DNA from: Candidatus Poseidoniaceae archaeon
GTDB taxonomy: Archaea > Thermoplasmatota > Poseidoniia > Poseidoniales > Poseidoniaceae
Direction of reading: 5' to 3'
Length of the DNA stretch: 46,217 bases
Assembly: GCA_028821785.1 (NCBI GenBank)
Contig: JAPKFC010000005.1
Location: forward strand, 1 to 46,217
Shown here: positions 22,049 to 42,094 of the stretch, one piece after another
How the letters are laid out: each line of letters starts with the position of its first letter
Numbering within the stretch: the first letter of the stretch is position 1
Program-made: the position numbers and the translations under genes
The notes under the pieces: generated by a model
Told to the model about the DNA's origin: nothing
The model's input: the letters and a program-made list of their open reading frames with translations, nothing else
The model's database searches: none

Positions 22049-24373
22049 TTATTCTTCCTCAACATACGGCGTAACCAATGATTCCCAGTATGAATCTTGG
22101 CGGATAGAGTCTGCCGCACAAATTGCAGCCATGTTGACTATGTGGCGCACACCATCTTGTCTCGCAACTAGTTGAACTGGTTTATCCATCCCTTCTAGAA
22201 TTGGCCCTGTCATCTCTGCGTCTCCCAGTTCCTCAAGTAATTTGTAAGCGATGTTTGCTGCCGCAAGATTAGGCAAAACAAGTACATTAGCTGGCCCGTC
22301 AAAGGACATGAATTCGTATTCACCTTGTACTGCTCCATTGAGTGCTGTATCTCCTTGCATTGGCCCATCTATTGTCAAGGATGGGTCGAGTTCTCTAGCA
22401 AATTCAATCGCTTCTTCAATCCTCTCAGAACGTTGTGCTCTACTGCTACCGAAATTAGAGAATGATAACATTGCAACCTTAGGGTCAACACCAAAACGAC
22501 GAGCAACCTTTGCGGTTTGAACTGCTATTTCCGCTAATGTTCTACTATCTGGATATACATTAACAGTAGCATCTGCCAAGAAAACCGTTCTACCTTTGAC
22601 ATTCATCATATAGCATCCAATAATGCAATGTGCGTCATCTGCTGAACCGATCAATTCGATAGTTGGCCTAAGCACGTCACCATAATTTCTTGAAACTCCT
22701 CCAACGAATCCATCAGCATGACCGCTCTTTACCATTTGACTTGCGAAATATGGGCGGCTCTTCAGTAACCTTGCAGCATCGAGATGAGTCATGCCTTTCC
22801 GTTTCCTATGATCAAACACAGCCTTTGCGTATTCACCCTTACGGCGTTTATCACGGCGCGGGTCATATGACTCATAATCGAAATGTAAGCCCAATTCTTC
22901 AACCATTGAATCTATTCTCTTCTTTGGACCGAGTAATATCGGAATGCAGATTTTCTGTTCTACTAATTGTGCAGCAGCCTTGATAACTTTCTCATTATCT
23001 CCTTCAGGGAAAACAATTCTCTTGCCTCTTCTACGGACTTGATTGATAACATGGCGCATTACTGAATAAGATAATCCAAAGCGACCTTCTAGTTGCTCTT
23101 TGTATTTTTCAATGTCGAAATCTTCGGCCTTAACACCTGTTATTCCTTCATCTACAGCCGCTTGTGCAACCGCACTAGCCTCCCAAATTAATACGCGTCT
23201 GTCGAACGGTTTTGGAATAATATATTCCGGCCCATATTGCATCGTCGCACCATCATAAGCAGCTGAAATATAATCTGGGACTGGTTCTTTGGCCAATGCC
23301 GCAAGCGAATAGGTTGCGGCCATTTTCATCCCTTGTGTAATATCACGCGCTCTGACATCTAATGCTCCGCGGAAAATATATGGAAACCCTAATACATTGT
23401 TCACTTGATTTGGGTAATCTGATCTTCCAGTAGCAATAATTGCATCATTCCTTACTTCAAGGATATCCTCTGGATCTATTTCTGGAGTCGGGTTAGCAAG
23501 TGCAAAAATTATCGGTTTGGCAGCCATTGTTGCCACCATTTCTTTAGAAACTAATCCACCTTTAGACAATCCTAGCATCATATCAGCTCCTTTCAATGCA
23601 TCTGCTAAATCTCCACCTTTGATATCGTGTGCAAATGTTGCTTTGAATTCATTTAGTTCTCCGGCATCTAAACGCTTCTTTGTCACAATACCTTGGCTAT
23701 CTACCATCAAGATGTTTTTATTTTTCACACCGACTGCAACATAGTGGTTGGCACAAGCAATTGCACTTGCACCAGCACCGATAACAACAACTTTGATTTT
23801 TGATACTTCTTTACCTTGTAATTCAACTGCATTCAACATTGCTGCTGCAGAAATAATTGCGGTTCCGTGTTGATCGTCATGCATAACTGGAATATCTGTT
23901 GCTTCTGCGATTCGCCGTTCAATTTCAAAACATTCTGGCGCCTTGATATCTTCAAGATTAATACCACCGAACGTTTTTGCAATATTACAAACTGTACTGA
24001 TGAATTCTTCAGGGTCTTCTGTATCAACTTCAATATCAAAGACATCGATGTCTGCGAAGGTTTTCAATAACAATCCTTTTCCTTCCATGACTGGTTTACT
24101 GGCTAATGCACCAATATTTCCAAGTCCTAATACTGCTGTACCGTTTGAAATTACTGCAACTAAATTGCCTTTAGAAGTATATTTATACGCATCTTCGGGA
24201 TTCTTTTCAATCTCCAGACACGGGTAGGCCACACCTGGTGAGTAAGCCAAACTCAATTCATATGCGGTTGAATGGGGCTTAGTAGGTACAACCTTGATTT
24301 TTCCACGTGGTTCCAGTTCGTGATATTCTAACGCTTCTTTGCGCAACCTGCGCTCCTTTTTCTCGCGTACCAT
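22049..24373 (-). CDS. maeB: NADP-dependent malic enzyme with phosphotransacetylase-like domain (MaeB type)
   Basis: MaeB converts malate to pyruvate and CO2 with reduction of NADP, feeding NADPH and acetyl-CoA supply. In the 774-residue protein residues about 1-430 are the malic enzyme part: SLAYSPGVAYPCLEI, GNLVAVISNGTAVLGLGNIG, PVMHDDQHGTAI, and the dinucleotide loop VVIGAGASAIACA. Residues about 440-774 match the phosphotransacetylase fold (FPEGDNEKVIKAA, DATVNVYPDSRTLAEIA, SFSNFGSSR). In bacterial MaeB this domain binds acetyl-CoA and regulates the enzyme and lacks transferase activity. Length and order match the bacterial family. GGAAGGGG six bases before the ATG at 24373 sets the start. 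Confidence 0.95.
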   Translation of the reverse strand: MVREKKERRLRKEALEYHELEPRGKIKVVPTKPHSTAYELSLAYSPGVAYPCLEIEKNPEDAYKYTSKGNLVAVISNGTAVLGLGNIGALASKPVMEGKGLLLKTFADIDVFDIEVDTEDPEEFISTVCNIAKTFGGINLEDIKAPECFEIERRIAEATDIPVMHDDQHGTAIISAAAMLNAVELQGKEVSKIKVVVIGAGASAIACANHYVAVGVKNKNILMVDSQGIVTKKRLDAGELNEFKATFAHDIKGGDLADALKGADMMLGLSKGGLVSKEMVATMAAKPIIFALANPTPEIDPEDILEVRNDAIIATGRSDYPNQVNNVLGFPYIFRGALDVRARDITQGMKMAATYSLAALAKEPVPDYISAAYDGATMQYGPEYIIPKPFDRRVLIWEASAVAQAAVDEGITGVKAEDFDIEKYKEQLEGRFGLSYSVMRHVINQVRRRGKRIVFPEGDNEKVIKAAAQLVEQKICIPILLGPKKRIDSMVEELGLHFDYESYDPRRDKRRKGEYAKAVFDHRKRKGMTHLDAARLLKSRPYFASQMVKSGHADGFVGGVSRNYGDVLRPTIELIGSADDAHCIIGCYMMNVKGRTVFLADATVNVYPDSRTLAEIAVQTAKVARRFGVDPKVAMLSFSNFGSSRAQRSERIEEAIEFARELDPSLTIDGPMQGDTALNGAVQGEYEFMSFDGPANVLVLPNLAAANIAYKLLEELGDAEMTGPILEGMDKPVQLVARQDGVRHIVNMAAICAADSIRQDSYWESLVTPYVEEE

Positions 24374-24567: not shown

Positions 24568-27500
24568 ATGACCCATTATTCCAAGGCGAGCAAGGCGTCT
24601 CGCAGTGCCAGCCAAGCAATCTCGCTTGTACTGATAATGTTGCTTTCTAGCCTTGCTCCTATACTGGCATCTCCTGTTGTTTCTGCACATGGATTGAATG
24701 ATAGTGCGATATGGCCAAAGGAAGGGCATAACGATACTGGTTGGGTTCAACTCAACACCGTTGGTGCAGGAGTGACCCCTGGCGCACAAGGCATGACTGA
24801 ATGGCAATTAGAGTTCGCTCCTGGCGCTGATTTGTCAAATGTTTCCTTGGAATTAAGAGTAAATGGTAGCGATGGTTTACTAATTGAGGAACCGATTCTT
24901 ACCGCTTCTGACATCGGAATTAACTTGTTTGATTGGAGGGGGCTTGGGATGTTTGGTTCAAACGATTTCTTTGATGCTTCTAACCCTCATTCCAGCCGAT
25001 TGGCCCCAAATAGCGACACTGGCGCAGGCTGGACTCTGCCAAGTGATGCTGAAATTACAGAATTGATATTTGAGGCCTTAGCACCTGCTGACCCCGCTGT
25101 ATCTTTTGAACCAATAAATCTCGACATTAGAGCCAATGCAATTCATCCTGACGATGGTAGAATGATGGTTGGTGTTACAAATTCAGTTGTGGTATTGGAT
25201 GCAAATAATGACCCACAAATAATCGACATCATAACATTTGAAAATGCTACTTCCATTCTTGATATAGCCGTGGATGAAGTTAATCGCTACCTGATCGTCC
25301 TAACCGATACAGATGGGATACATTTCTTGAACCTAGATGACAGTTCTTTAGCGATGGTAGTTCCTGCTCCTCTCGTTATCGATTCATATCAAACAAAATT
25401 ACTAACGCTAAATGGAATGGTCTATTTGGCAGGTTATGGCGGATTATTTCAATATGATGCTGCTGTAAATTCTTGGCTAAACTTAGCAGATTCTACTGAT
25501 ACTAATTGGAATAGTGGATTCTCAATTGACATGATTGAAAACAATGGAATCATCTATGTTAGTTCCTGGGAGAATGGTATCAACCGATGGGATATCTCCT
25601 CTGCTACTTCCCTTTCTGCTTGGACTACTGCCAATGTTTTACATTCAGATTATATTTGGACTATTACAGTCGCCAATAATCAAATTTTATTCGGTTCATA
25701 TGATAACGGAGTTGCCCGCTTTGATTGGAATTCTAATTTCTGGTTAAGCACTTGGAATTCTGCGAATTGGTTAGTCAATGATGATATTTGGGGCGTTGAA
25801 TCAATCGGTGATCAATTGCTAATATTGAACGGTGCAAATGTCCATTATTACAATACTACAAGTGGAGTTTTCGGAACCACTGATACATTGTCAAGTTACG
25901 GCATCTATGCAGGTAGATCGATGTTTACTTGGCCTTCAAGTGGCTCTCGCGCACCAATGACTGATACAATTCTACTAACAGACTATACTGGGAAAATTGT
26001 CAAATTAACACCTACTGAATCCACTCGCTACGATGGTCAAATCCCGATATCAAGTTCACCAAGTTCAGGTGATATGACAAATATTGTTGAGTTGGATAAT
26101 ATTCTATTTATCACCAATCCATATGTTTTGGACAGATATAATATCGGGCAATCCAAATGGCTAAGTCCAGTAATCCATGGCATGACTGCTACCTCAATAC
26201 ATACTGATGGCAATAGTATATTCATGGGCACTGAAGCACATGGAATCATCAATTATGCCAAGAATGGTAGCGTAATTAACTCTTATTCCAATGCAAATGG
26301 AATGTATAGTAATTCAATCACAAATTTTGCAATCGATAATGGAATCATAGTCTCTACTCACCAAAGTGGCGGAATAAGTATTATCAATCTCTCATCGTCT
26401 TCGATTTTGAATTATGATTCATCTGATGGAATGGATTCGGATTTCCTAAATGATGTTGCTATTCATCAAGATATAGCATTTATTGGAAGCGAAGATTCAG
26501 GGATTATTCGATATGATATTAGCAATGATACATTTCTTTCATCTTGGGTCTCAACTGGCGTCAATGGAGTAGATTATGCCCCTGTAGCAGTTGTTGGTGA
26601 TATACTATACTTCGGACTTTCAGGCTATGGTGTTGCTCGCAAAGACCTAGCTACTGGAGAGATATTAACGCCTTTGACTGCACGTGGGGGCGTCTTGCCA
26701 AGTTCTAACATCTATGCTTTGGAAAGTGATGGTTCTGATCTCTACATCGGAACCCAGGGTGGAGCAATACGCTGGGACGGTAACCAAGCAGATAATTTTG
26801 TTAGTGGTAGCCAATGGCAAACAAGGCCAACTCAATTCTTTGACTTCTCTATTGATGGAGGAGATTTGTATGCTGGAACAAACATTGGGGTTTGTAAATA
26901 TGTATTGTCAACCATAACTATTGATGATTGTCAGAATGTCCAAGATGGAATGCCAAATTGGGCTGTATATGCTGTCCACTATGATTCAGATTTCGTATAT
27001 GGTGGAACTCTTTCCGGTGTTGGATTAGTTAATATTACAAATTTTGAACATGATTCAAATTGGGGCGAAGGTGCTCAAAGTGATACTGCGCCGGTTGAAG
27101 TAATCGGCACTACGGCCTATATCGGGCTTGATGGAATTGGTGTATTGAGATATGATATCACCAACAATACATGGCTTCCTACTTGGACTGTTAACGGAGT
27201 ATTAGACACAAACGGAATTACCAGTTTGGTGGCTGACATTAGACCTAATCAAATCTGGATTGGTGGCGATGACGGTTTCCAATTGATTGACATTGTCAAT
27301 GAAACCGAAGAATATGATATTGAAAAAACCAATGCTATGTATTCTGGAAATGGCGATCCGTATCAGTTAATGATTCATGGAGACATATTATATTTCCATC
27401 AATCTACTCAAAGCGATAGTATCCATAGAATAAACATCTTGAACTTCACTTCGATGACCTCACTCGATATTGGAAGTCAATTATCGGAAAATAATGGTGA

Positions 27501-30500
27501 TGTTTACGGAATGAATTTCATCGGTGACATCTTGATGGCCGGATTGGCTTCCGGCCAATGGTGGAATGCAGATGGGTCTGGTGGTATTGCTCAATGGAAT
27601 ACCAGCAATAATTCTTGGGGGCCAAATGTTGAACCTATTGGAGAAATTAACCGAGTAACATCTTACATTTCATCTGCTGGCAATCATTGGATTGCATGGG
27701 GTGAAACTAAAATGGATCTTTACAATAATGGTTCTTTGGTTAATTCTTGGGATGATTCTGTATTTGACTTCCCAATAAGAGGAATTGTTGAATTTGATGG
27801 TGCGACATTGTTCGCTACTGAAGATGGCGTGGCAAGATATAACGAATCTTCTAATTCTTGGCTAACAACTTGGACTGAGGGTAGTGGATTACCAAATAAT
27901 GCAGGAGAGAGATTCTATGACATCTGGACAGATGGTACTGAGTTGGTAGTCGGTGGCGCTGACTTCTCCAATTGGGGACAATTTAGAACTGGTACGGTTT
28001 CTCACTTAGATAGTTCAGGCTCTTGGTCTACATTTACTGGTGGCCAGAGTGGAATGCCAAATGGATACCCTATGTCTATGGCAATGTGTGGTGGAGTTCT
28101 CAATGTTGCTATGTACAATAATTTCAATGGTGGAATTGCAGTAATCGATTTACAAAATGCTACTGCTGGTACTCATATTTCTGGAACTTCTTTGGATGAT
28201 GATACTCCTTCAGCAGTGGCTTGTGATGGAGTTGATACACTTTACATCGGATATTATGCTGACGATATGCCTGTTTCAAAGTATAGTTATCAAACCAGCA
28301 CTTGGTTGAATGACTTAACTTCTCGAAATCACAATCTTCCTTCAGACAGAGTGTGGTGGGATGCAATAAATTATCACGCTGGTAAACTAATTCTAGGACA
28401 TGGATTGGGTACTTCTGGCAATAATATCATTGGAGGAGGATATTCTGTTATCACTACATCCGGGAATACTGCGGCTTCTGCAACGGTAATCACTCAAGGC
28501 TCATCAGTCACATCTTTCCAACCGTATGGACAAGGTTGGATTATTGGACAAGCAGGTGGAACTTCTGGGTATAGCCACGTAGACATAGTGTCTTCACAAG
28601 GGCAAACTCCTATGATTAAACTGCCTGGCCTTGTCAGTGGACAAATAACCAGTATCGCAGGTAGTGCAACAACTATTTGGGTTACAACCTTTGGACAATC
28701 TCAAGGGTTTGGAATTGCTGGAGGAGCTGGCATTCTTCAAGGTAATCGTAATGCTGATGGCTCTATTGAATGGGATTATGGATGGTCTCTATCCGCACAA
28801 TCTCGTGGCAATGATGTTGAATTGATTGGAAATGATCTCTATGTTACTACATCTCCCGCAGGATTGTACAAATTAGATGTTCAAACTCAACAACTTACCA
28901 CCTATACTGGAGCATTGCACGACAGCCACTATGGAATGGTGAAAACAGGAAATGATTTGGTTATCGGATTATCCGGACAAGGTAATTCAATACCAGGTGT
29001 GCAAGTTTTCAATATTAATTCTCAGACCTTTACTCAAGGGAAGTTAATCGCAGGATTACCGTCTCCTGTTATCAATGGATTTGGCAGTACTAGTGATGTC
29101 ATGTACATCGCTACAAATGGTGGAATCGGTAGATGGAATTATACTACAAGCGATTGGATGAATCCAATTACCATACTTGAAGGATTACCTTCAAACATTG
29201 TTGAGGACATATTGGTAGATGGCAATGATATTTGGTTGACCACTCCAAGTGGACTTGCAAAGTACAGCCCTATGACTGGGGCTATCACAACTATGACATC
29301 ACAAAATGGATTGTTTGGAACCTCAACTTGGGGTTTAACCTTAGTCGGCCCAACCGTCACTACAACTCCAAATGGCACCAGTATCAGTTCAACACTCTAT
29401 ATCAGTCACGATGGTAAAAGTACGGAAAGGCCTGGTGTTTCCAGTTTTGAGACTAGTACACCTACATCGATTGATACTCATCGCTTTGACCAAATTCCTT
29501 CCAATACTGTTTCCGCATTGGCTGCTGATTGGTGGGGATTACATATCGCCACTAATATCGGTCCAATGACACACTGGAATGGACAAGTCGGTGAATTTGA
29601 AGACGGAATGGCCTCTTGGCAAATTAGCGGGTGGCCTATTACGAGTATGCAAAGTGATGGTGATGATATTTTGGTTATTACCGAGCAAGGTGCTGCAATA
29701 ATCAAAGCACGGACTGCTACACACGCAATAACAAAATCCTGGTTTAAAACCAATGCTTCAGATGGAATATTAACTGCCAACAATGTTTGGCTAACCACTG
29801 AAAGTGATGGGCTATGGGGTTATGAAAGAACTGCATCTTGGACTGAATTAGATCGATTTGAAATGCGTCGGGCAATGCCACTGAATGCTGGATTTAATAT
29901 GAAAAATTCTAACATCAGTGAGTGGACACATCCTGGCGCTCAAATCCAATTGGTTGATGTTGACGACCCTGTTAAATTAGATTCCACCGCTGGTATTGCT
30001 GGCGCTCATGGTTTGCTATTCCAAAATGTACCTCTTACCTTTACCTCAACAGTTGCTGGCGCTGCTACTTGGTCTCGTTCCGTGTCACTGAAGTATAATG
30101 CTACAGTCAACTTAACCAGTGACCCTGGACTTGAAAACACCATACAGAATGCTGTTGATAACGGTGTGATCATAAATGGAACTCGTTATGTCACACTAAC
30201 ACTACGTTCACCAAGCAATGGCTCCCTACAAGCAAGATTAGTTTATGATTATATCAAGTTGGAGACTCCTGTTGAAATGACTAATTTGATCGACAGACCT
30301 GATGATGGCGGGGGAGCGTTGATGGCTGATTGGACACTCGTTCATGATGAAGACTTTGCTCGTTACCTCGTATATGTTAACGACGGCCCATTCATTACTA
30401 CTGGTGGCTCACCATTAACTGCAGCGAACCTCGCTGGAAGAACGGTTGACAAAGCAATCTCATTACATAGTCGCTTGTCGAGTGAAGTTACTACTGCAAA

Positions 30501-32880
30501 TGGACTACCGCTTGTTGATGGAACTGAATATTATGCTGCAATAGTCGTTGAATATAATGACGGCAGATGGGGCTTAATCTCACTACCAATGGGACCTGCA
30601 ACTCCTACAGATGAAGTACCTAATTCACCGCTTTGGGCTACTGCTGGACCATATGATGGTGGCCAAGATGGTGATTTAGAAGTTGAATGGGCGCGTTGTA
30701 CTGCTCTCGATTTAGCAAGTACTCGCATTTACACATCAACATCGCAAATGACTGATATTTTGGGACTTAGCGTAACTGCTGACCTTCCACCAAGTGAAGG
30801 AAATACTACTGTATTATCGCTTGATGCTGGCAAACCATACTGGTTGGGTCTAACTTGTGTAGATGAAGCTGGACAAGAAGATTGGCAGAATGCCACAATT
30901 ATTGGCCCAGTTGTACCGACTGGTGGACTAAATGATAACACAGCACCTGCTAAATTAGAAAATGTCTCTGCAATAGATACTCCAGATGATGATGGTGGAC
31001 GAATTACTATCTCATGGGATATCAGTGCTGATGAGGATTGTACTTTCTATGCCGTCTTTATGATGATGGTGGAAGATGATGGGATTGATGAAGAGGCTCT
31101 GTTGCCGAACAATGTTAATTCCTTCTCGCAAACTGCTATCATAAATGACTGTGCTGAAAATTCAACTATTATTTCCAGTATGGATGGAGTTGATCTGCAA
31201 GATGGTCAACTTTACTGGGTTGGCGTTGTTGCTTACGATGATTGGCTCAATGCTAACTTGGATGATGTCGATGTTGTCGGTGTTACACCGTTTAGAAACA
31301 CGATTGGCTCAGGCTCAGCACCGAGTCGAATTGGCGTAATCAATGCCTTTGATCATGCTGATGATGATGGAACTGCAATAGATGTTATTTGGTCTATTTC
31401 TGATGCTGATGATTTCTCCCACTACATCGTATGGGTTGCGGATAAACCTGTTACAGACCTGTCAATACTTTGGGCTGCAAGAGGTGACGATTCAGCAAAC
31501 TGTGCCTGTTTGAAGGTGAACAAGCAATGGATTGATGAAGATAAGAACCCGATTGAAATTACTTTGAGTACTGCTCTATATGGAGGAGACTCGTTATTAG
31601 AAACAACGCCTAAATCAATTATGCCTGATGTTGAATTATATGTCACCGTCACTGTTCATGATAACAAAGGAAATGTATTCCTCACCGATTTAGTTCAAGC
31701 AACTGTGACTCCAATCGATAATTTGAATGATGTTATTGCACCAGATAGATTACAAGACTTGCAATTAATTGACAAGCCTGCTGATGATGGAACTGCACTA
31801 TTACTGGACTTTAATTTGTCTAATGATGGCGATGTGAAGTCATATGCAGTCTATGCAGCGACTTGGGAATTCACTTCTGTTAGCACTGGAGGAGATGGCC
31901 CAATCGCTCCAATCGCAACTTTATCAAGAAATCCAGAATTGCCTCTATCTATCAAATTGACTGCGGGCGATACTCCTGTGGTTCCTGGCCAGATGGTTTG
32001 GGTCGCAGTAGTCGTAATAGACTCTTCTGGAAACTCCTTTGAAGATAATTTAGTTGTAGTGAGTGCTGCATCTGTTGACGATGGCATTAGTGATATGGGA
32101 TCTCATTTACCCGATATTATTGGAATCAGTTTAGCATGGAATGAAGAAGTAAATATTCTAGTTCAATGGCAACATTCCTCATCTTCTTCAGTTAGAGGAT
32201 ATCAAATTTATATCTCCGCTGAAGAATATTCAATGACCGAAGATGCCATGCTAGTTGGCGAAGTAAAAGCCAGCAATACATTCCTAATCACTCAAAATGG
32301 ATTTGAGAATCTTGTGAATAATACCGCATGGTATGTATCGGTAAGTGCAATCGATGAAGAATACCACAAAGAAAGTGTCAAGCCGATTAAATTGGACGCC
32401 TTTGAAGCCGGTAATATTGGCGGCGGAACTGGCGAAACTGGAGCGGAGGATGAAAGCAAGCAATTGGGTTCATACTTGACAACTCCAAATCTCTTAGCCA
32501 TGGGATTAGCCATTGTCGCTCTATTCCTAGTGCTAGCAATTTTCAAGAGTCGGGGAAGTAACCACCGCCGTAGTAAAGATTGGGAATTACAAGAAGCTAC
32601 ATGGGGGTTGCAAAACCAAAATGATGCTGGATGGGATAATGTGCCGAAGGGAACACCTGCTCCGCCACCTGCAGCCACCGTTACTCAAACTCAATCAAGT
32701 GACATATATGCTGCCGCAAACAGAGTTCAATCTGATAGTTATGGCCGACCTGCATATCAAAGCCAACAACCGGTGTTACAGCCTGTTAGAAACGACACAC
32801 TGCTTGATGATTTAATCGAAAAGCCGGCACAGCAATCTCAACAGAACATTGACACATCATTCCTTGATGACCTGTTGTGA
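24568..32880 (+). CDS. Giant surface protein: beta-propeller blades, FN3-like domains, C-terminal anchor and LDDL tail
   Basis: This 2770-residue protein starts with a signal peptide (about residues 14-40, ending VVSAHG). Residues about 190-1780 hold many propeller-like blades of the two-component-regulator type, with recurring units such as GVARYD, WxTTW, NGLPSN and YIGTxGG, suggesting several beta-propellers. From about residue 1900 come five or six domains of FN3-like layout, four of them starting with a D-x-PxDDG signature (near 1909, 2136, 2262, 2402). A TM helix (LLAMGLAIVALFLVLAIF, near 2642-2660) is followed by a cytoplasmic tail of about 110 residues rich in Gln and Pro, with two LDDL motifs at its end. 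Most of the protein is thus outside the cell, probably for adhesion or polymer binding. Its TGA overlaps the next start by one base. Confidence 0.88.
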   Translation: MTHYSKASKASRSASQAISLVLIMLLSSLAPILASPVVSAHGLNDSAIWPKEGHNDTGWVQLNTVGAGVTPGAQGMTEWQLEFAPGADLSNVSLELRVNGSDGLLIEEPILTASDIGINLFDWRGLGMFGSNDFFDASNPHSSRLAPNSDTGAGWTLPSDAEITELIFEALAPADPAVSFEPINLDIRANAIHPDDGRMMVGVTNSVVVLDANNDPQIIDIITFENATSILDIAVDEVNRYLIVLTDTDGIHFLNLDDSSLAMVVPAPLVIDSYQTKLLTLNGMVYLAGYGGLFQYDAAVNSWLNLADSTDTNWNSGFSIDMIENNGIIYVSSWENGINRWDISSATSLSAWTTANVLHSDYIWTITVANNQILFGSYDNGVARFDWNSNFWLSTWNSANWLVNDDIWGVESIGDQLLILNGANVHYYNTTSGVFGTTDTLSSYGIYAGRSMFTWPSSGSRAPMTDTILLTDYTGKIVKLTPTESTRYDGQIPISSSPSSGDMTNIVELDNILFITNPYVLDRYNIGQSKWLSPVIHGMTATSIHTDGNSIFMGTEAHGIINYAKNGSVINSYSNANGMYSNSITNFAIDNGIIVSTHQSGGISIINLSSSSILNYDSSDGMDSDFLNDVAIHQDIAFIGSEDSGIIRYDISNDTFLSSWVSTGVNGVDYAPVAVVGDILYFGLSGYGVARKDLATGEILTPLTARGGVLPSSNIYALESDGSDLYIGTQGGAIRWDGNQADNFVSGSQWQTRPTQFFDFSIDGGDLYAGTNIGVCKYVLSTITIDDCQNVQDGMPNWAVYAVHYDSDFVYGGTLSGVGLVNITNFEHDSNWGEGAQSDTAPVEVIGTTAYIGLDGIGVLRYDITNNTWLPTWTVNGVLDTNGITSLVADIRPNQIWIGGDDGFQLIDIVNETEEYDIEKTNAMYSGNGDPYQLMIHGDILYFHQSTQSDSIHRINILNFTSMTSLDIGSQLSENNGDVYGMNFIGDILMAGLASGQWWNADGSGGIAQWNTSNNSWGPNVEPIGEINRVTSYISSAGNHWIAWGETKMDLYNNGSLVNSWDDSVFDFPIRGIVEFDGATLFATEDGVARYNESSNSWLTTWTEGSGLPNNAGERFYDIWTDGTELVVGGADFSNWGQFRTGTVSHLDSSGSWSTFTGGQSGMPNGYPMSMAMCGGVLNVAMYNNFNGGIAVIDLQNATAGTHISGTSLDDDTPSAVACDGVDTLYIGYYADDMPVSKYSYQTSTWLNDLTSRNHNLPSDRVWWDAINYHAGKLILGHGLGTSGNNIIGGGYSVITTSGNTAASATVITQGSSVTSFQPYGQGWIIGQAGGTSGYSHVDIVSSQGQTPMIKLPGLVSGQITSIAGSATTIWVTTFGQSQGFGIAGGAGILQGNRNADGSIEWDYGWSLSAQSRGNDVELIGNDLYVTTSPAGLYKLDVQTQQLTTYTGALHDSHYGMVKTGNDLVIGLSGQGNSIPGVQVFNINSQTFTQGKLIAGLPSPVINGFGSTSDVMYIATNGGIGRWNYTTSDWMNPITILEGLPSNIVEDILVDGNDIWLTTPSGLAKYSPMTGAITTMTSQNGLFGTSTWGLTLVGPTVTTTPNGTSISSTLYISHDGKSTERPGVSSFETSTPTSIDTHRFDQIPSNTVSALAADWWGLHIATNIGPMTHWNGQVGEFEDGMASWQISGWPITSMQSDGDDILVITEQGAAIIKARTATHAITKSWFKTNASDGILTANNVWLTTESDGLWGYERTASWTELDRFEMRRAMPLNAGFNMKNSNISEWTHPGAQIQLVDVDDPVKLDSTAGIAGAHGLLFQNVPLTFTSTVAGAATWSRSVSLKYNATVNLTSDPGLENTIQNAVDNGVIINGTRYVTLTLRSPSNGSLQARLVYDYIKLETPVEMTNLIDRPDDGGGALMADWTLVHDEDFARYLVYVNDGPFITTGGSPLTAANLAGRTVDKAISLHSRLSSEVTTANGLPLVDGTEYYAAIVVEYNDGRWGLISLPMGPATPTDEVPNSPLWATAGPYDGGQDGDLEVEWARCTALDLASTRIYTSTSQMTDILGLSVTADLPPSEGNTTVLSLDAGKPYWLGLTCVDEAGQEDWQNATIIGPVVPTGGLNDNTAPAKLENVSAIDTPDDDGGRITISWDISADEDCTFYAVFMMMVEDDGIDEEALLPNNVNSFSQTAIINDCAENSTIISSMDGVDLQDGQLYWVGVVAYDDWLNANLDDVDVVGVTPFRNTIGSGSAPSRIGVINAFDHADDDGTAIDVIWSISDADDFSHYIVWVADKPVTDLSILWAARGDDSANCACLKVNKQWIDEDKNPIEITLSTALYGGDSLLETTPKSIMPDVELYVTVTVHDNKGNVFLTDLVQATVTPIDNLNDVIAPDRLQDLQLIDKPADDGTALLLDFNLSNDGDVKSYAVYAATWEFTSVSTGGDGPIAPIATLSRNPELPLSIKLTAGDTPVVPGQMVWVAVVVIDSSGNSFEDNLVVVSAASVDDGISDMGSHLPDIIGISLAWNEEVNILVQWQHSSSSSVRGYQIYISAEEYSMTEDAMLVGEVKASNTFLITQNGFENLVNNTAWYVSVSAIDEEYHKESVKPIKLDAFEAGNIGGGTGETGAEDESKQLGSYLTTPNLLAMGLAIVALFLVLAIFKSRGSNHRRSKDWELQEATWGLQNQNDAGWDNVPKGTPAPPPAATVTQTQSSDIYAAANRVQSDSYGRPAYQSQQPVLQPVRNDTLLDDLIEKPAQQSQQNIDTSFLDDLL

Positions 32881-37093: not shown

Positions 37094-38377
37094 TCAAGAT
37101 TTTGCATGGATTTTAAGAACGTCTCCATCACTTAATTCGTGCTCTGCACCGACCACTCTTCTTGTTCTTCCATCCACTCCTTTGATAAATCCGTCTCCTA
37201 AGTCAGAATGTACTTTGTAAGCAAGAGGTTTCGCCTGAATAGCATTTGGAACGACGAAGGCATCTGGCAAAACTTTGCCATCACCATCAGTCCAGTGTAA
37301 TTCATCTTGTACTGGATATACTACAATGTGGTCTAATTCATCAAAGAGAACCTTGTCGATAATTGTTGCAACACCTGTTCCACCGTTAGAACTCAAACGT
37401 TCTTGCATATGTGAGAGTGCTTTGATTTGTGCCTCGTTCAACCCTTTGTCTTCCTCTATTGTGAACGAGTCTTGTCCTGTGGTGTAATTGATCAAGCCTG
37501 CTGATTGTGCCCTGCGTAGAGCCAATTCAACATCTGCCATACAAGCAACTATTGTTCCGTTCGCTGTAATTTCCTTTAGAACTCCTTTAGGGGCGATATC
37601 GCATTTATTTGCTGCAATATGAATTGGGAATAAGTAAATACGAACATTCACTGCCAGTTTCGCAATTATATCGTCTTGCCAATTCCAAGGTTGTCCACAA
37701 TCGCCAACTTCATTTTTGAAATCATCAAATGCGTTAGCAACCAAATTTAGAGTAGCCCCTAATCCAGTCAATCTTTCATGAATAAATGAAATTAAGCCCT
37801 TCTCACCTTCGGCTTGGACTCTTCTAACACCTCTTTGCCAACCATCCTTTAGTAAACCAGTGATCCAAGCATCTAATTCATCTGCAAGAAACTCAATCTC
37901 TTGATTTATTCTCAACTGAGCATCTTCTTTTGTTTGACCAGGTCCGAGCGGATTTCCTTCAATATCTGTTGAACCTGCTGCATCGACTACCTGAATTAGC
38001 GCATCGCTATTTGCTAAATCAGCTAAGAACGCGTTACCTCTTCCTTTACCTTCACTGGCACCAGGAACTAAACCTGCTACATCGACTAAGAAACATGGAA
38101 CTAATCTGCGGAATCCGATACAACTCCCTGTTCTTGGCTGACATATACTGCCTTGACGTGGGTCGTCTTCAGCGCTTGATGGTAAGCGCCCTTCGGACTC
38201 CAGCCGTTGTCTAATATCCTTACACGGGCACGGTTTACGCGCTTCGATAAAAGCCACGCCTACATTTGGTTCTATAGTACAAAATGGATAGTTTGCAATG
38301 TCAACCTTTGCAAGTGTTGCAGCGCTGAAAAATGTTGATTTACCAACATTTGGTTTTCCTACAAGACCGATTCGCAT
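37094..38377 (-). CDS. ychF: YchF-like GTP-binding protein (Obg superfamily, archaeal branch)
   Basis: The 427-residue P-loop NTPase has GLVGKPNVGKST (G1), DVAGLVPGASEGKGRGN (G3) and ANKCD (G4), and ends in a TGS domain (SDLGDGFIKGVDGRTRR and HELSDGDVLKIH). The NKCD motif predicts GTP, unlike bacterial and eukaryotic YchF, where the altered motif allows ATP. Between G1 and G3 there are four cysteines (CPC, then CQPRTGSC) that are typical of the archaeal branch as I remember it, plus an extra acidic loop. These proteins bind ribosomes and act in translation or stress response. It lies 16 bases downstream of the oxidase-like gene, and a 13-base palindrome just before its ATG at 38377 contains the Shine-Dalgarno-like GGGGAA. 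Confidence 0.92.
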   Translation of the reverse strand: MRIGLVGKPNVGKSTFFSAATLAKVDIANYPFCTIEPNVGVAFIEARKPCPCKDIRQRLESEGRLPSSAEDDPRQGSICQPRTGSCIGFRRLVPCFLVDVAGLVPGASEGKGRGNAFLADLANSDALIQVVDAAGSTDIEGNPLGPGQTKEDAQLRINQEIEFLADELDAWITGLLKDGWQRGVRRVQAEGEKGLISFIHERLTGLGATLNLVANAFDDFKNEVGDCGQPWNWQDDIIAKLAVNVRIYLFPIHIAANKCDIAPKGVLKEITANGTIVACMADVELALRRAQSAGLINYTTGQDSFTIEEDKGLNEAQIKALSHMQERLSSNGGTGVATIIDKVLFDELDHIVVYPVQDELHWTDGDGKVLPDAFVVPNAIQAKPLAYKVHSDLGDGFIKGVDGRTRRVVGAEHELSDGDVLKIHAKS

Positions 38378-38393: not shown

Positions 38394-40529
38394 TCAGGCC
38401 TCGGTGATAAGGCTGACTAAATCTTTCTTTGTTCCTGATGTATCTAGACCTAAAGAAGTTGCAAGTTCAACCAATTCAGCCTTCTTCATCTTGTTGAGTT
38501 GGGCTTTAGAAGGGACTTCAACTTCCGGAGTTGATTGTTTAGCAGCATTCGCTTTGCGAATCTTTGCAATTGCAATCGAAAGTTCTGGTAAGTTGATTTG
38601 TCCATCTCCATCAATGTCGATAGCAGCAATAAGGGAATCCATTTCCCACGGCGGCAGGTTTGCAACCTTTGAATTCTTCAATGCCATTTGGAACTCGTAA
38701 GCATCTACCATGCCAGAATTATCTAAATCAATGGACTCGAAAAACTGGAAGATGGTTTGTCCTGAATCTACTAAATAATCTACAAGCATTGTTAATTCAT
38801 TACCGGTCGATTCGGATTGTTCTTCTTCAACCACTTCTTCTTCTGGGAATTCGGTGACTTCATCATCGTGAAGTGCAGCGGAAACTGCGATTACAGTGCT
38901 TCCACCCTCGTCTTCTTCCATTTCCCCTACTACCAATGTGGTATCGACTCCAACTCCTCGTCCTAGCAGTGTGCGAATTGATGTTGTTCCGTCTCCTAGG
39001 TTGTAGGTATTAATATCCGAAACAGATGTTTGGGAATGGCTTGATGTGAGTTTTGAAGCACTTGTTCTTATGACGACCAATGTGGCCACTATTGCACCGA
39101 TTGCAGTGAAATAGAATAATGCTGCTCCGACTAAATAGAATCCTTCTGTTTGAGCAACTGCATCTTCAACACCTGAATTTGCAACCGCTTGGATTGTGAA
39201 GTCTCCAATTAGATTTGTAATGGTGGATGCAAAGCCTCCGAATAGAACAAACCAAACTGTTAGGTTTGCTTTACTTGGTTCGGAAAGTTCTTTGTTACAG
39301 GCCAATGGATGAGAAATGTAGGCACCTGATAGGATCATCAAACCACCAACAGTCCATAGGAATCCCATGTCAAGAGTTGTTGCCATATCTCCAAGTTGTC
39401 CTGTTCCGAGGAAGACATCCATTCCAGTAAAGAATGCTCCAATTGCATAGAGTGGTAGCAATACCATTGCAAGTGTTGCCGCAAGAGCTCCTGGGCTCTT
39501 GACGATTGCAGATGTATTGCCACTGGCCGTGAATAGTAAGTTGACGCTACCTGCGATTATTGGCAGTAGGCCAAGTGTCATTACGATTGCACCAAGGTTG
39601 AGTAATGTTGTAGAGGCACTCGCTGAAGCGATAAAGAATGGTGGAAGGGTAATGAATAGCAAGAATAGATTCGCTTGGCGCATTGAGGCAGACCAAATTG
39701 GTATACCTGATGTCATCGGGATAATGTGGTATGCTGCAGAGAATATTAGGGACAAGATTACCCAAGAACTTCCCATTTGACCCGCAAGCCAAACTATTTG
39801 GGTAGAGCCGGCAAGTTCGCCAAAGAATCCTAAGAACATTGACAAGATAAATGTCAATAGAGCGAATATCAGGAACCAAGCACTTGTTGATACTTCTTCA
39901 TCGCCTCTATTTGCAACTGTTAGTAAGACGTTTACAAATAATCCAGCAACTATCATTGCAACTGCCAATTTGGAGACTGCATCGATTAATACAATATTTA
40001 TTGCACTGTCTATGTCTTGCCCTAGCAGTCCTAATAGCGATGGTAATAATGCAGCAAAGATTGTTGTTAAGGTAAACAAAAATGCTGAAAGTGATGCGCT
40101 TGCTTCACTTGCCATTTTCCCATTACTACTACGTGAAATTGAAACAAGTCCTGCGCCAACTAGAGTTGAGAATACTGCAACTCCGAGGAATTTGGTAGTG
40201 GTTGCTGTTAATGCATCACCATTATCGTATGACCATCCAATGCTTGCTAGAGAATCTAGTGCTGTTGGATCGTAGTGGTGCCACAGTCCGAGGAATCCAC
40301 AAATTGAAGAGAATACGAACCAAAGCATGCCGAAATTAATCCATGTTCTAGCACCGCTACCTGGCTTGTCCTCGAATAAGTCAACCAAACCTGCTGGGGC
40401 TTTGTTGAGGAAGAATAGTGAAAATTGGCGCGTTGCCTCTGACATGCTGCCTATTCCTTTTTCTGTGTAATTCGCAGTGAACCACATTGCGAACACTGTT
40501 ATTGCAATTCCAAAAAATACTGATTCCAT
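38394..40529 (-). CDS. Heme-copper-oxidase-like membrane protein lacking metal ligands, fused to EF-hands and a SAP domain
   Basis: Residues 1 to about 490 form about 12 TM helices that follow the pattern of cbb3/NorB-type oxidase subunit I. By eye, DNGDALTATTTKFLG (100s) fits helix II, WLAGQMGSSWVILSLIFSAAYHIIP (246-271) fits helix VI onward, and GQLGDMATTLDMGFLW (377-392) fits the helix with the HxH ligands. All six expected heme and copper histidines are absent: Thr in helix II, Gly/Gln in helix VI, IASASAS for the His pair, and TTLD in the last. After an acidic linker come two intact EF-hand loops (DLDNSGMVDAYE near 600; DIDGDGQINLPE near 638) and a C-terminal SAP-like domain (KKAELVELATSLGL, near 680). 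The TTG/ATG question does not arise: ATG 40529. The gene lies 13 bases after a small two-TM gene. Function unknown. Confidence 0.78.
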   Translation of the reverse strand: MESVFFGIAITVFAMWFTANYTEKGIGSMSEATRQFSLFFLNKAPAGLVDLFEDKPGSGARTWINFGMLWFVFSSICGFLGLWHHYDPTALDSLASIGWSYDNGDALTATTTKFLGVAVFSTLVGAGLVSISRSSNGKMASEASASLSAFLFTLTTIFAALLPSLLGLLGQDIDSAINIVLIDAVSKLAVAMIVAGLFVNVLLTVANRGDEEVSTSAWFLIFALLTFILSMFLGFFGELAGSTQIVWLAGQMGSSWVILSLIFSAAYHIIPMTSGIPIWSASMRQANLFLLFITLPPFFIASASASTTLLNLGAIVMTLGLLPIIAGSVNLLFTASGNTSAIVKSPGALAATLAMVLLPLYAIGAFFTGMDVFLGTGQLGDMATTLDMGFLWTVGGLMILSGAYISHPLACNKELSEPSKANLTVWFVLFGGFASTITNLIGDFTIQAVANSGVEDAVAQTEGFYLVGAALFYFTAIGAIVATLVVIRTSASKLTSSHSQTSVSDINTYNLGDGTTSIRTLLGRGVGVDTTLVVGEMEEDEGGSTVIAVSAALHDDEVTEFPEEEVVEEEQSESTGNELTMLVDYLVDSGQTIFQFFESIDLDNSGMVDAYEFQMALKNSKVANLPPWEMDSLIAAIDIDGDGQINLPELSIAIAKIRKANAAKQSTPEVEVPSKAQLNKMKKAELVELATSLGLDTSGTKKDLVSLITEA

Positions 40530-40542
40530 ACATCACACCTCC

Positions 40543-40815
40543 TCAATCCAATAGGACCTCTCCCAATAAGTTGGAAACTATCACAGCAACTCCTGCGAGT
40601 AATCCAATCAAGTAATACCAAATTCCTGAACCACCCAAGTTATCAATCAATGGTATTAGGTCGCTGAGCAATGGAAGGGAATCCCATCCAAATACATTAG
40701 AAAATAGTGCTAATAGGCCAATTACGCCCACTAAAAACAAAGTCAATAGTACGCGGCTGGTTGATGGTTCTCCGTTTCCGGTGGTCACATCTGGTAGTGT
40801 CGTAGTGTTCGTCAT
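40543..40815 (-). CDS. Small two-TM membrane protein upstream of the oxidase-like gene
   Basis: The product of about 90 residues has a short Thr-rich leader and two TM helices (roughly residues 21-41 and 66-84). ATG 40815 is preferred because GAGACGAGGACG stands directly before it. The longer form starting at a GTG at 40860 would place a 17-base palindrome inside the coding region. The stop is 13 bases before the oxidase-like start, so the two are very likely co-transcribed and probably form a complex, as small subunits do in oxidases. No family is recognised. Confidence 0.7.
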   Translation of the reverse strand: MTNTTTLPDVTTGNGEPSTSRVLLTLFLVGVIGLLALFSNVFGWDSLPLLSDLIPLIDNLGGSGIWYYLIGLLAGVAVIVSNLLGEVLLD

Positions 40816-40832
40816 CGTCCTCGTCTCCAATT

Positions 40833-40849
40833 TGACCCCATAGGGGTCA
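40833..40849 (-). promoter_or_regulatory. Palindrome upstream of the small subunit and oxidase-like gene pair
   Basis: TGACCCC-ATA-GGGGTCA is a perfect 7+7 base inverted repeat with a 3-base centre, 17 bases before the chosen start codon at 40815. It shares its ACCCC-nnn-GGGGT core with the one at 8838-8852. It is a candidate operator or leader hairpin. Confidence 0.4.
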
Positions 40850-40927
40850 TTCTGTTCCACTTGGGGAGCGGTAATAAGTATTGACTAGCAACATCGTCGC
40901 TAGACTGGGCATTGGATGGAATATTTC

Positions 40928-42094
40928 TCACAATGAACGCAAATTCGCTAGAACGTTGCCTCGGCGACTTTTTGAAATCCCTAAAGGGGCAGGTAATGTC
41001 TCTTCTAAGGAGATTTCAGTTGCCCAAATTGTTTGGCATTGGCATTCTAGTCCAACGAATTCTCGTAAATCTCCTGAAACTGCATAACGTTCGATGGCGG
41101 CAACGACATGCGAATCACATTCACCGCAGTTATGGGCTCCACGAACTTTTCCTCCAGCGGTTGGGTGAACGATGAGACGGGAAATTTGATCTGCATCACC
41201 ATTGAATCCACCATCGGGATGGATAGAAGGGTGAGCTCGCTTGATCATCTCGACCAGCGACCATAACCATGGAGGGCGATACTCGTTATTGCGGTGTAAT
41301 CTATCAATGATTGTACCTCTTTGGATATTCATTGGATTAACAGAGATTTCATCGCTCTTTTCTGCGATTGCTTCAATCCACTTTACACTATGATTTAATG
41401 CATCAGCTTCAGACATAAATGGTGGTTTAAACATTAGATATGTCTTTATTCTGATATTGAATTTTTGCATATTAACAACTGCTCGCTCCCAAGATTTTGT
41501 TGTAAACCCTTTGTTGACATGGAATCTTAATACTTCATCATCATAGGCTTCTAAGCCAATTGCTACTGCGAAATTTTGATTGATTTTAGTTGCCCATGCT
41601 AATTTTTCTTCAGTCATTTGTTCACAGCGACTCTCGACTATCAATTCCTTACCGAGACGTTGACAATCTGCTAATACGGTCTCTTGGAATTCTACAGGAA
41701 TTTCCCTATCTTCTAACAGGCTACCTGAAGTGTAAACCTTAACCATCTGGTGGTCTTCGAAATCATTGAACTTCTGTTTTGCATATTGCCACTGTGAATG
41801 TAGGTTTTCGTTGGTCACATCATCACGTGTGTCATTGAAATAACCACAAAAAGTACAACCTGAACTCCACCACCAATGGCATCCTTTGGTTCTAAGAATC
41901 ACAGTAACTGCGCTGCATGGTGTACCATCTGCTGTTGTTTCTGGAGTGTAATATACGGTTGCTGGTTCATCTGCATCCCATGATTGTTGGCGTTCTTTTG
42001 CCCAAGGGGTATTAGCTGGAGCTTTAATCAAATCATGAATGCGGACACCTTTGTTACTCTCGCCGAGCAAAGTAAGTGAAACGGGCTTGTTCAT
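40928..42094 (-). CDS. Archaeosine-pathway radical SAM protein RaSEA
   Basis: RaSEA works with archaeosine synthase ArcS to turn a lysine-linked preQ0 into archaeosine (G+) at position 15 of archaeal tRNA. The 388-residue protein has a radical SAM site of the form C-x7-C-x2-C in KGCHWWWSSGCTFCGYFND, where the three Cys bind the 4Fe-4S cluster. It also shows the family's VKVYTSGSLLEDREIP, VESRCEQ and GLEAYDDEVLRFHVNKGF blocks. The C-terminal HNCGECD is a further Cys cluster. These fit the family now assigned to RaSEA and not the shorter YhcC/Elp3 groups. GGAGGAAGAGAC stands before the ATG at 42094. The gene is 112 bases upstream of the oxidase-like operon and 70 bases from the decarboxylase gene. 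Confidence 0.87.
   Translation of the reverse strand: MNKPVSLTLLGESNKGVRIHDLIKAPANTPWAKERQQSWDADEPATVYYTPETTADGTPCSAVTVILRTKGCHWWWSSGCTFCGYFNDTRDDVTNENLHSQWQYAKQKFNDFEDHQMVKVYTSGSLLEDREIPVEFQETVLADCQRLGKELIVESRCEQMTEEKLAWATKINQNFAVAIGLEAYDDEVLRFHVNKGFTTKSWERAVVNMQKFNIRIKTYLMFKPPFMSEADALNHSVKWIEAIAEKSDEISVNPMNIQRGTIIDRLHRNNEYRPPWLWSLVEMIKRAHPSIHPDGGFNGDADQISRLIVHPTAGGKVRGAHNCGECDSHVVAAIERYAVSGDLREFVGLECQCQTIWATEISLEETLPAPLGISKSRRGNVLANLRSL

Follow-up and report, generated by a model that had tools for sequence, protein, structure and literature searches.

A heme-copper-oxidase-like membrane protein family without ligand histidines in Poseidoniales archaea

Catalytic heme-copper oxidases need six metal-binding histidines, and these oxidases are defined by their metal centres. 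The locus described here raises the question of what a protein resembling subunit I of such enzymes, and devoid of these histidines, may be and do. Its gene is located in a stretch of 46,217 nt (hereafter the window; contig JAPKFC010000005.1, positions 1 to 46,217) from a Candidatus Poseidoniaceae genome of Marine Group II, presented in the abstract of PMC6336850 as globally abundant marine archaea without cultured isolates.

Layout of the protein and kinship to heme-copper oxidases

The initial annotation had read the ORF at 38394-40529 on the reverse strand as an oxidase-like protein with EF-hands and a SAP-like domain, and the ORF list and Pfam searches gave the same layout, as follows:

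38394..40529, (-), stop codon included: heme-copper-oxidase-like protein of 711 aa without ligand histidines, with an EF-hand/SAP tail
39042..40529, (-): membrane part, residues 1-496, one N-terminal transmembrane helix (TM) plus 12 TMs aligning with cbb3 subunit I (hhalign, residues 60-496 of the window protein, and hydropathy)
38772..39041, (-): linker, residues 497-586, with the juxtamembrane motif TSIRxLLxxGxGxDT (alignments)
38580..38750, (-): EF-hand pair, residues 594-650 (Pfam; block pLDDT 79-84 in the tail model)
38400..38498, (-): SAP domain, residues 678-710 (Pfam, 9e-8; three helices, block pLDDT 80-82)

In the Pfam scan the window protein matched EF-hand_1 (6.8e-9), EF-hand_7 (1.1e-8) and SAP (9e-8), each above the cut-off, and both EF loops look canonical by eye (residues 601-612, DLDNSGMVDAYE, and 638-649, DIDGDGQINLPE). 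This pair, which resembles the canonical loop pair of calmodulin-type EF-hand proteins and is here fused to a 13-TM membrane part, would be expected to bind Ca2+. The linker motif is recognisable by eye in alignments of both archaeal families compared in this work, i.e., the family of the window (Poseidoniaceae, family 1) and its sister family (family 2, presumably Thalassarchaeaceae). The average hydropathy of the protein family contains 13 hydrophobic peaks, with two split ones joined, of which one precedes the oxidase-aligned region and 12 lie within it; the count of 12 TM helices in the core is thus one of hydropathy peaks and not of structure. Structure prediction, which had been proposed along with the initial annotation, was informative for the tail, in which AlphaFold placed the EF-hand and SAP helices (mean pLDDT 65), and failed for the membrane part, as the model of residues 1-535 built with eight close sequences reached a pLDDT of 33.5 and was unusable. 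The best Foldseek match of the tail model was calmodulin (0.0013), with nothing below 0.001.

Taken alone, the window protein reveals no oxidase: COX1 is absent from its Pfam matches at E ≤ 10, and the matches listed for it in Pfam, NCBIfam and PDB comprise EF-hand and SAP proteins with weak others, the PDB matches listed (60 of 313) being of calmodulin type. The earlier claim of likeness to cbb3/NorB-type subunit I was borne out through the profile of the protein family, for which significant similarity over subunit I was found. Profile A5, built from both archaeal families together (25 sequences) and searched against 177,635 PDB sequences, retrieved five sequences at E ≤ 10, all of them heme-copper oxidases: two named cytochrome-c oxidase (9g6b, 6.4e-12; 9g83, 1.1e-8), two named cbb3-type subunit I/N (3mk7, 1.7e-11; 6xkw, 2.9e-10), and the NorB 4xyd (0.029). 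No PDB match was obtained with the narrower profiles A2 (family 1) and A7 (five g17/g22 members).

The HMM-HMM comparison suggested at the outset pointed the same way. In hhalign, 52 members matched five cbb3 rows at 99.3% (3e-20, 449 columns), beside yardsticks of 98.9% for aa3 against cbb3 and 99.2% for cbb3 against NOR; against all sets containing cbb3 the values were 98.9-99.5% over 365-449 columns, and family 1 alone gave 97.0-98.5% with sets holding cbb3. Controls run against the protein family (MFS, complex-I-type, and reversed profiles) did not exceed 1.5%, and among the control comparisons not involving the family the highest, MFS against cbb3 plus NOR, reached 5.9%. Row L183 of reference set C, which grouped with aa3 in trees, is excluded from the figures of 99.3% and 98.9%; with this row kept, the aa3-cbb3 yardstick rises to 100%, and the family match stays at 99.3%. 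Reference set A was reduced to 19 of its 25 rows, as six had no ORF bearing the expected motif. Since the match falls to 69% for NOR alone and to 6% for aa3 alone (i.e., no direct match to aa3-type COX1), the family is, by profile comparison, most similar to the cbb3 type among heme-copper oxidases.

Further traces of this kinship were found in single members. Among the six scanned, one (L099) matched Pfam COX1 at 1.5e-6 with 27.8 bits, below the cut-off of 34.8, and in tblastn it matched plasmid genes annotated as "cbb3-type cytochrome c oxidase subunit I" at 2e-8; COX1 matches below the cut-off (5e-7 to 5e-4) also overlap the family gene in four genomes of the sister family (G182, G183, G192, and G198). 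In a tree of 49 rows the protein family forms one side of a branch with support 100/100 and a long stem, which attaches close to where cbb3 parts from aa3 plus NOR and is not placed inside the cbb3 branch. Descent of the family from heme-copper oxidases can be regarded as nearly certain.

Comparison with the known enzymes indicates both what was kept and what differs. With the C-type (cbb3) subunit I, CcoN/FixN (PDB 3mk7), the family is alignable over about 420-450 columns and has P323, W426, and G431 in common, but its ligand histidines are replaced, no ccoO or ccoP lies beside it, an N-terminal TM is added, its small partner is a different one, and the window protein bears the EF-hand/SAP tail. 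NorB belongs to the same superfamily, yet the match to it is much weaker than to cbb3, and the family lacks its ligands. COX1 of the A-type (aa3), which is the genome's true oxidase, belongs to the same superfamily by way of cbb3 rather than by a direct match.

Ligand positions

The six ligand histidines of CcoN align to T110, Q251, F298, F299, L386, and M388 of the window protein, encoded at:

40200..40202, (-): T110, at the place of the low-spin heme histidine of TM2 (five of five profile alignments)
39777..39779, (-): Q251, at the place of the CuB histidine of TM6 (profile alignments)
39633..39638, (-): F298-F299, at the place of the two CuB histidines of TM7 (three of the five profile comparisons align them; the other two have a gap here)
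39366..39374, (-): L386 to M388, at the place of the heme histidines of TM10 (with a register doubt of about two residues)

The TM6 histidine falls on Q251 in four of the five profile alignments and on G250 in one, while one further alignment shifts it to 254, and the TM10 pair falls on L386/M388 or M388/F390 where aligned; the register doubt at the TM6, TM7, and TM10 positions amounts to one to three residues. No histidine occurs at, or adjoining, any of the six positions in the window protein, so that the absence of ligands claimed by the initial annotation was upheld, as was its placing of them in TM2 and TM6; the TM7 and TM10 positions are close to those it gave (298-299 beside 300-306, and 386/388 or 388/390 beside 384-387). 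The two low-spin heme histidines, the high-spin heme histidine, and the three CuB/FeB histidines of an oxidase enzyme are all missing.

Much the same is seen in the relatives. Among the 52 members, 32 have no histidine at the six ligand columns and 20 have a single one, so the loss is common to both archaeal families; by column, histidine was counted at T110 in 0, Q251 in 11, F298 in 0, F299 in 0, L386 in 0, and M388 in 9 members. We also looked for conserved histidines at shifted positions. The commonest histidine column (27/52, V129 of the window protein) is not a ligand column, and no histidine or cysteine column reaches 60% among the 52 members. A methionine column in TM2 is occupied in 36/52 members and could provide a ligand in them; the window protein has Ser121 there. 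In the genera g17 and g22 a TM2 histidine is kept in all five members seen, within one residue of the heme position, and one BLAST alignment of L242 pairs it with an oxidase histidine; it may be a relic.

Of the columns that are at least 80% conserved among 18 reference oxidase rows, the family kept P323 (48/52), W426 (45), and G431 (49) and lost the histidine columns together with several others. Within the family itself 46 columns are at least 80% conserved in the 52 members, and 23 of them hold W, G, P, N, or S. Those that are charged, K43, D50, E142, and E455, are all in loops; the only membrane columns charged in at least half of the rows, 387 and 443, are both near helix ends, and no conserved charged residue was found in mid-membrane among the 52 members. 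It is very likely that the protein is non-redox.

Partner gene, tail, and distribution

The core gene does not stand alone. Its neighbours in the window are:

40928..42094, (-): radical SAM-like protein (Pfam 20.7 bits, below cut-off); conserved neighbour in 63/63
40543..40860, (-): partner, 13 nt upstream of the core; a small protein of 105 aa if read from GTG (about 90 aa judging by homologues), with two hydrophobic peaks
37094..38377, (-): YGR210-type (Obg-like) GTPase; conserved neighbour in 55/55

A partner homologue was found upstream, on the same strand, in all of the 103 distinct core genes that have 300 nt or more of upstream sequence, and it lies within 17 nt of the core (overlaps included) in all but one, a split gene. 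In this exception (L132:3675-5971, (+)) the core gene is divided over two frames by an assembly error or a lesion, and the longer piece has its partner 203 nt upstream. The order radical SAM-like gene, partner, core, GTPase was counted where enough sequence was present. The sister family shares the ligand loss, the upstream partner and, where sequence suffices, this gene order, and since the order spans both families, their core genes look orthologous. The constant pairing suggests that core and partner form a complex. Six partner proteins scanned against Pfam gave nothing above the cut-off; below it, one matched FixP_N (E 0.024) and another DUF3021 (0.005), and profile comparison of the partner with CcoQ, CcoP, CcoO, cbb3-like subunit II, and subunit I did not exceed 0.6%. 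Neither ccoO nor ccoP adjoins the core, the neighbours being those named above, and no pathway link was found from the gene neighbourhoods.

The tail was surveyed in 104 distinct core proteins, 100 of them including the stop codon, EF-hands being identified by pattern and SAP by a profile of eight seeds. Among proteins with complete C-termini, the EF-hand pair is present in 74/74 from family 1 and 0/26 from family 2, and SAP in 32/74 and 4/26, respectively. Two of the four cut proteins (L051 and L122) show the EF-hand pair, and the other two (L015 and L124) end before the EF region. Two EF-hand pairs were seen in L014, and this protein and L043 represent one lineage whose tail ends in four EF-hands and lacks SAP there. 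As to whether the tail is conserved along with the ligand loss, a question left by the initial annotation, the EF-hand pair is so within Poseidoniaceae and not in the sister family, and SAP is not. Judging from these sequences, ligand loss is common to the order, the EF-hand pair marks Poseidoniaceae, and SAP is patchy; the pair being confined to one family and the ligand loss found in both argues that the loss is older than the calcium tail. The pair was either gained in Poseidoniaceae or lost in the sister family.

The summed counts of lysine and arginine in the predicted loops (14 in the inner and one in the outer ones) are as expected if the oxidase topology is retained, and this bias makes a cytoplasmic tail most likely; of the two locations left open earlier, cytoplasmic or external, the former is favoured and the latter disfavoured.

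The family is almost ubiquitous in the order. Some match at E 0.001 was obtained in 169/170 genomes of Poseidoniaceae, a few being weak and probably due to tail domains alone, and the membrane profile matched 149/154 genomes of Poseidoniales; one of the five without a match (G089) is 90% complete. The class search gave matches in 95/118 genomes and no family match in the 18 listed genomes of a third group (presumably MGIII), and the phylum search in 82/292, of which 80 were Poseidoniales. The two remaining phylum matches (6e-4 and 0.004) cover only about 60 positions and were taken as chance. No relatives were found on viral contigs among 88 pattern matches examined. The ratio dN/dS was about 0.07-0.17 in six of seven pairs (dS was saturated in the seventh), which indicates purifying selection: the gene is in use, and pseudogene decay is ruled out by values of about 0.1.

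The source genome has one true COX1, on another contig (C68, 479 bits), and the window protein is therefore not its working oxidase. Low-affinity cytochrome c oxidases in Marine Group II are reported in the excerpted text of PMC6336850, which makes no mention of a ligand-less oxidase-like protein.

Several other observations were made along the way. The true COX1 (L001:808-3102, (+)) is extended at its N-terminus by about 230 aa that include a CTCHGG motif and precede the oxidase domain, its COX1 match spanning 232-685. A second divergent heme-copper oxidase of 558 aa (COX1 125 bits, His-rich motifs by eye) is encoded on contig 12 of a sister-family genome, G179 (L098:397-2070, (-)). Contig C85 of the source genome carries an ORF (L003:1264-2961, (+)) whose product has hydrophobic stretches and two EF-hand pairs and weakly matches a zinc ribbon. 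In the window itself, 24568-32880 (+) is an ORF of 2770 aa that matches nothing in Pfam at E 0.01, 22049-24373 (-) is a single ORF with domains of malic enzyme and of phosphate acetyltransferase, and 12691-15474 (-) is a 927-aa ORF with a sub-threshold match to LDL-receptor class A (1.6e-4).

Possible roles of the ligand-free fold

The homology, the ligand loss, the conservation, the gene pairing, and the EF-hand/SAP distribution were established by computation, and on this ground a role may be proposed. The family would have branched deeply from subunit I of the heme-copper oxidases, with cbb3 as the most similar type. It would have retained its core of 12 helices and given up the ligands for heme and copper no later than the ancestor of Poseidoniales. 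Core and constant two-TM partner would most likely form a non-redox membrane complex, perhaps acting as a scaffold or regulatory platform; through the cytoplasmic C-terminal tail, the EF-hand pair of Poseidoniaceae could let it respond to cytosolic Ca2+, and the SAP domain of some lineages may bind nucleic acid or protein. Structural kinds make up half of the best-conserved residues, and no charged column lies in mid-membrane; this favours a complex of this sort over a redox enzyme or a proton-coupled transporter. We give about even odds to a non-redox, two-subunit scaffold or regulatory complex with a cytoplasmic tail, and the preference for a scaffold or regulator over a channel is just as evenly poised. 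The fuller account, in which the fold was emptied of its cofactors by the Poseidoniales ancestor and kept as the core of a two-subunit signalling complex, Ca2+-controlled in Poseidoniaceae and perhaps contacting nucleic acid via SAP, is more tentative and falls somewhat short of even.

A Ca2+-gated ion channel or transporter, with ions or a small solute passing through the heme-free pores of the oxidase fold and, in Poseidoniaceae, gating by the EF-hands, appears unlikely. The oxidase relatives of the twelve-helix core have pores, and the EF-hand pair is invariant in the complete family 1 proteins. However, the sister family does without EF-hands, the 52 members have no conserved charge in mid-membrane, and the adjoining genes are not transporters, although in seven genera of the sister family the opposite strand carries an MFS-like ORF (by eye) about 3.3 kb upstream.

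Somewhat less probable still is a role as a non-catalytic subunit, accessory to the true aa3-type oxidase of the cell or needed for its assembly. COX1 matches above the cut-off in 57/60 genomes of the order and common descent of the fold speak for it, but COX1 sits on another contig in the source genome, direct likeness to aa3 is missing, and three genomes of the presumed MGIII group match COX1, yet the 18 listed there are without the family.

That the protein is a cryptic redox protein binding heme or metal via other ligands is improbable. The single ligand-column histidine of 20 members, the TM2 histidine of g17 and g22, near the heme position and paired with an oxidase histidine in L242, and the TM2 methionine column would fit this reading; against it, the commonest histidine column is off the ligand positions, none is widely enough shared to reach 60%, and the window protein has neither the methionine nor a ligand histidine. 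An unrelated polytopic family resembling oxidases by chance, suggested by the failure of the window protein alone and of the narrower profiles to match any oxidase, can hardly be maintained given that the PDB search with the full family points to heme-copper oxidases alone, as do Pfam, tblastn, and hhalign, and that the controls fail.

The scaffold or regulatory complex remains our preferred reading. The excerpted part of PMC9258230 describes a halobacterial family, fam02696, with distant HMM-HMM homology to oxidase subunit I and often beside cbb3 or NorB genes; compared by description only, both families are lineage-specific, archaeal, and distant from oxidase subunit I, but fam02696 belongs to Halobacteria. 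The same excerpt reports Poseidoniales-specific protein modules, some with calcium-binding domains. In the open-licence literature no description was found of an oxidase with EF-hands, of a pseudoenzyme or missing-ligand form, or of such a Marine Group II protein, in agreement with the initial remark that no described protein with this combination was known.

A ligand-free family under selection suggests that the bare oxidase fold can be useful; if the proposed role is true, this would be the first non-redox use of the heme-copper oxidase fold. The natural variants with and without EF-hands and SAP offer a test case for domain addition to an old membrane core. As the family is near-universal in the sampled Poseidoniales genomes, its role bears on how such cells work, and an old enzyme shape seems to have gained a new job in them.
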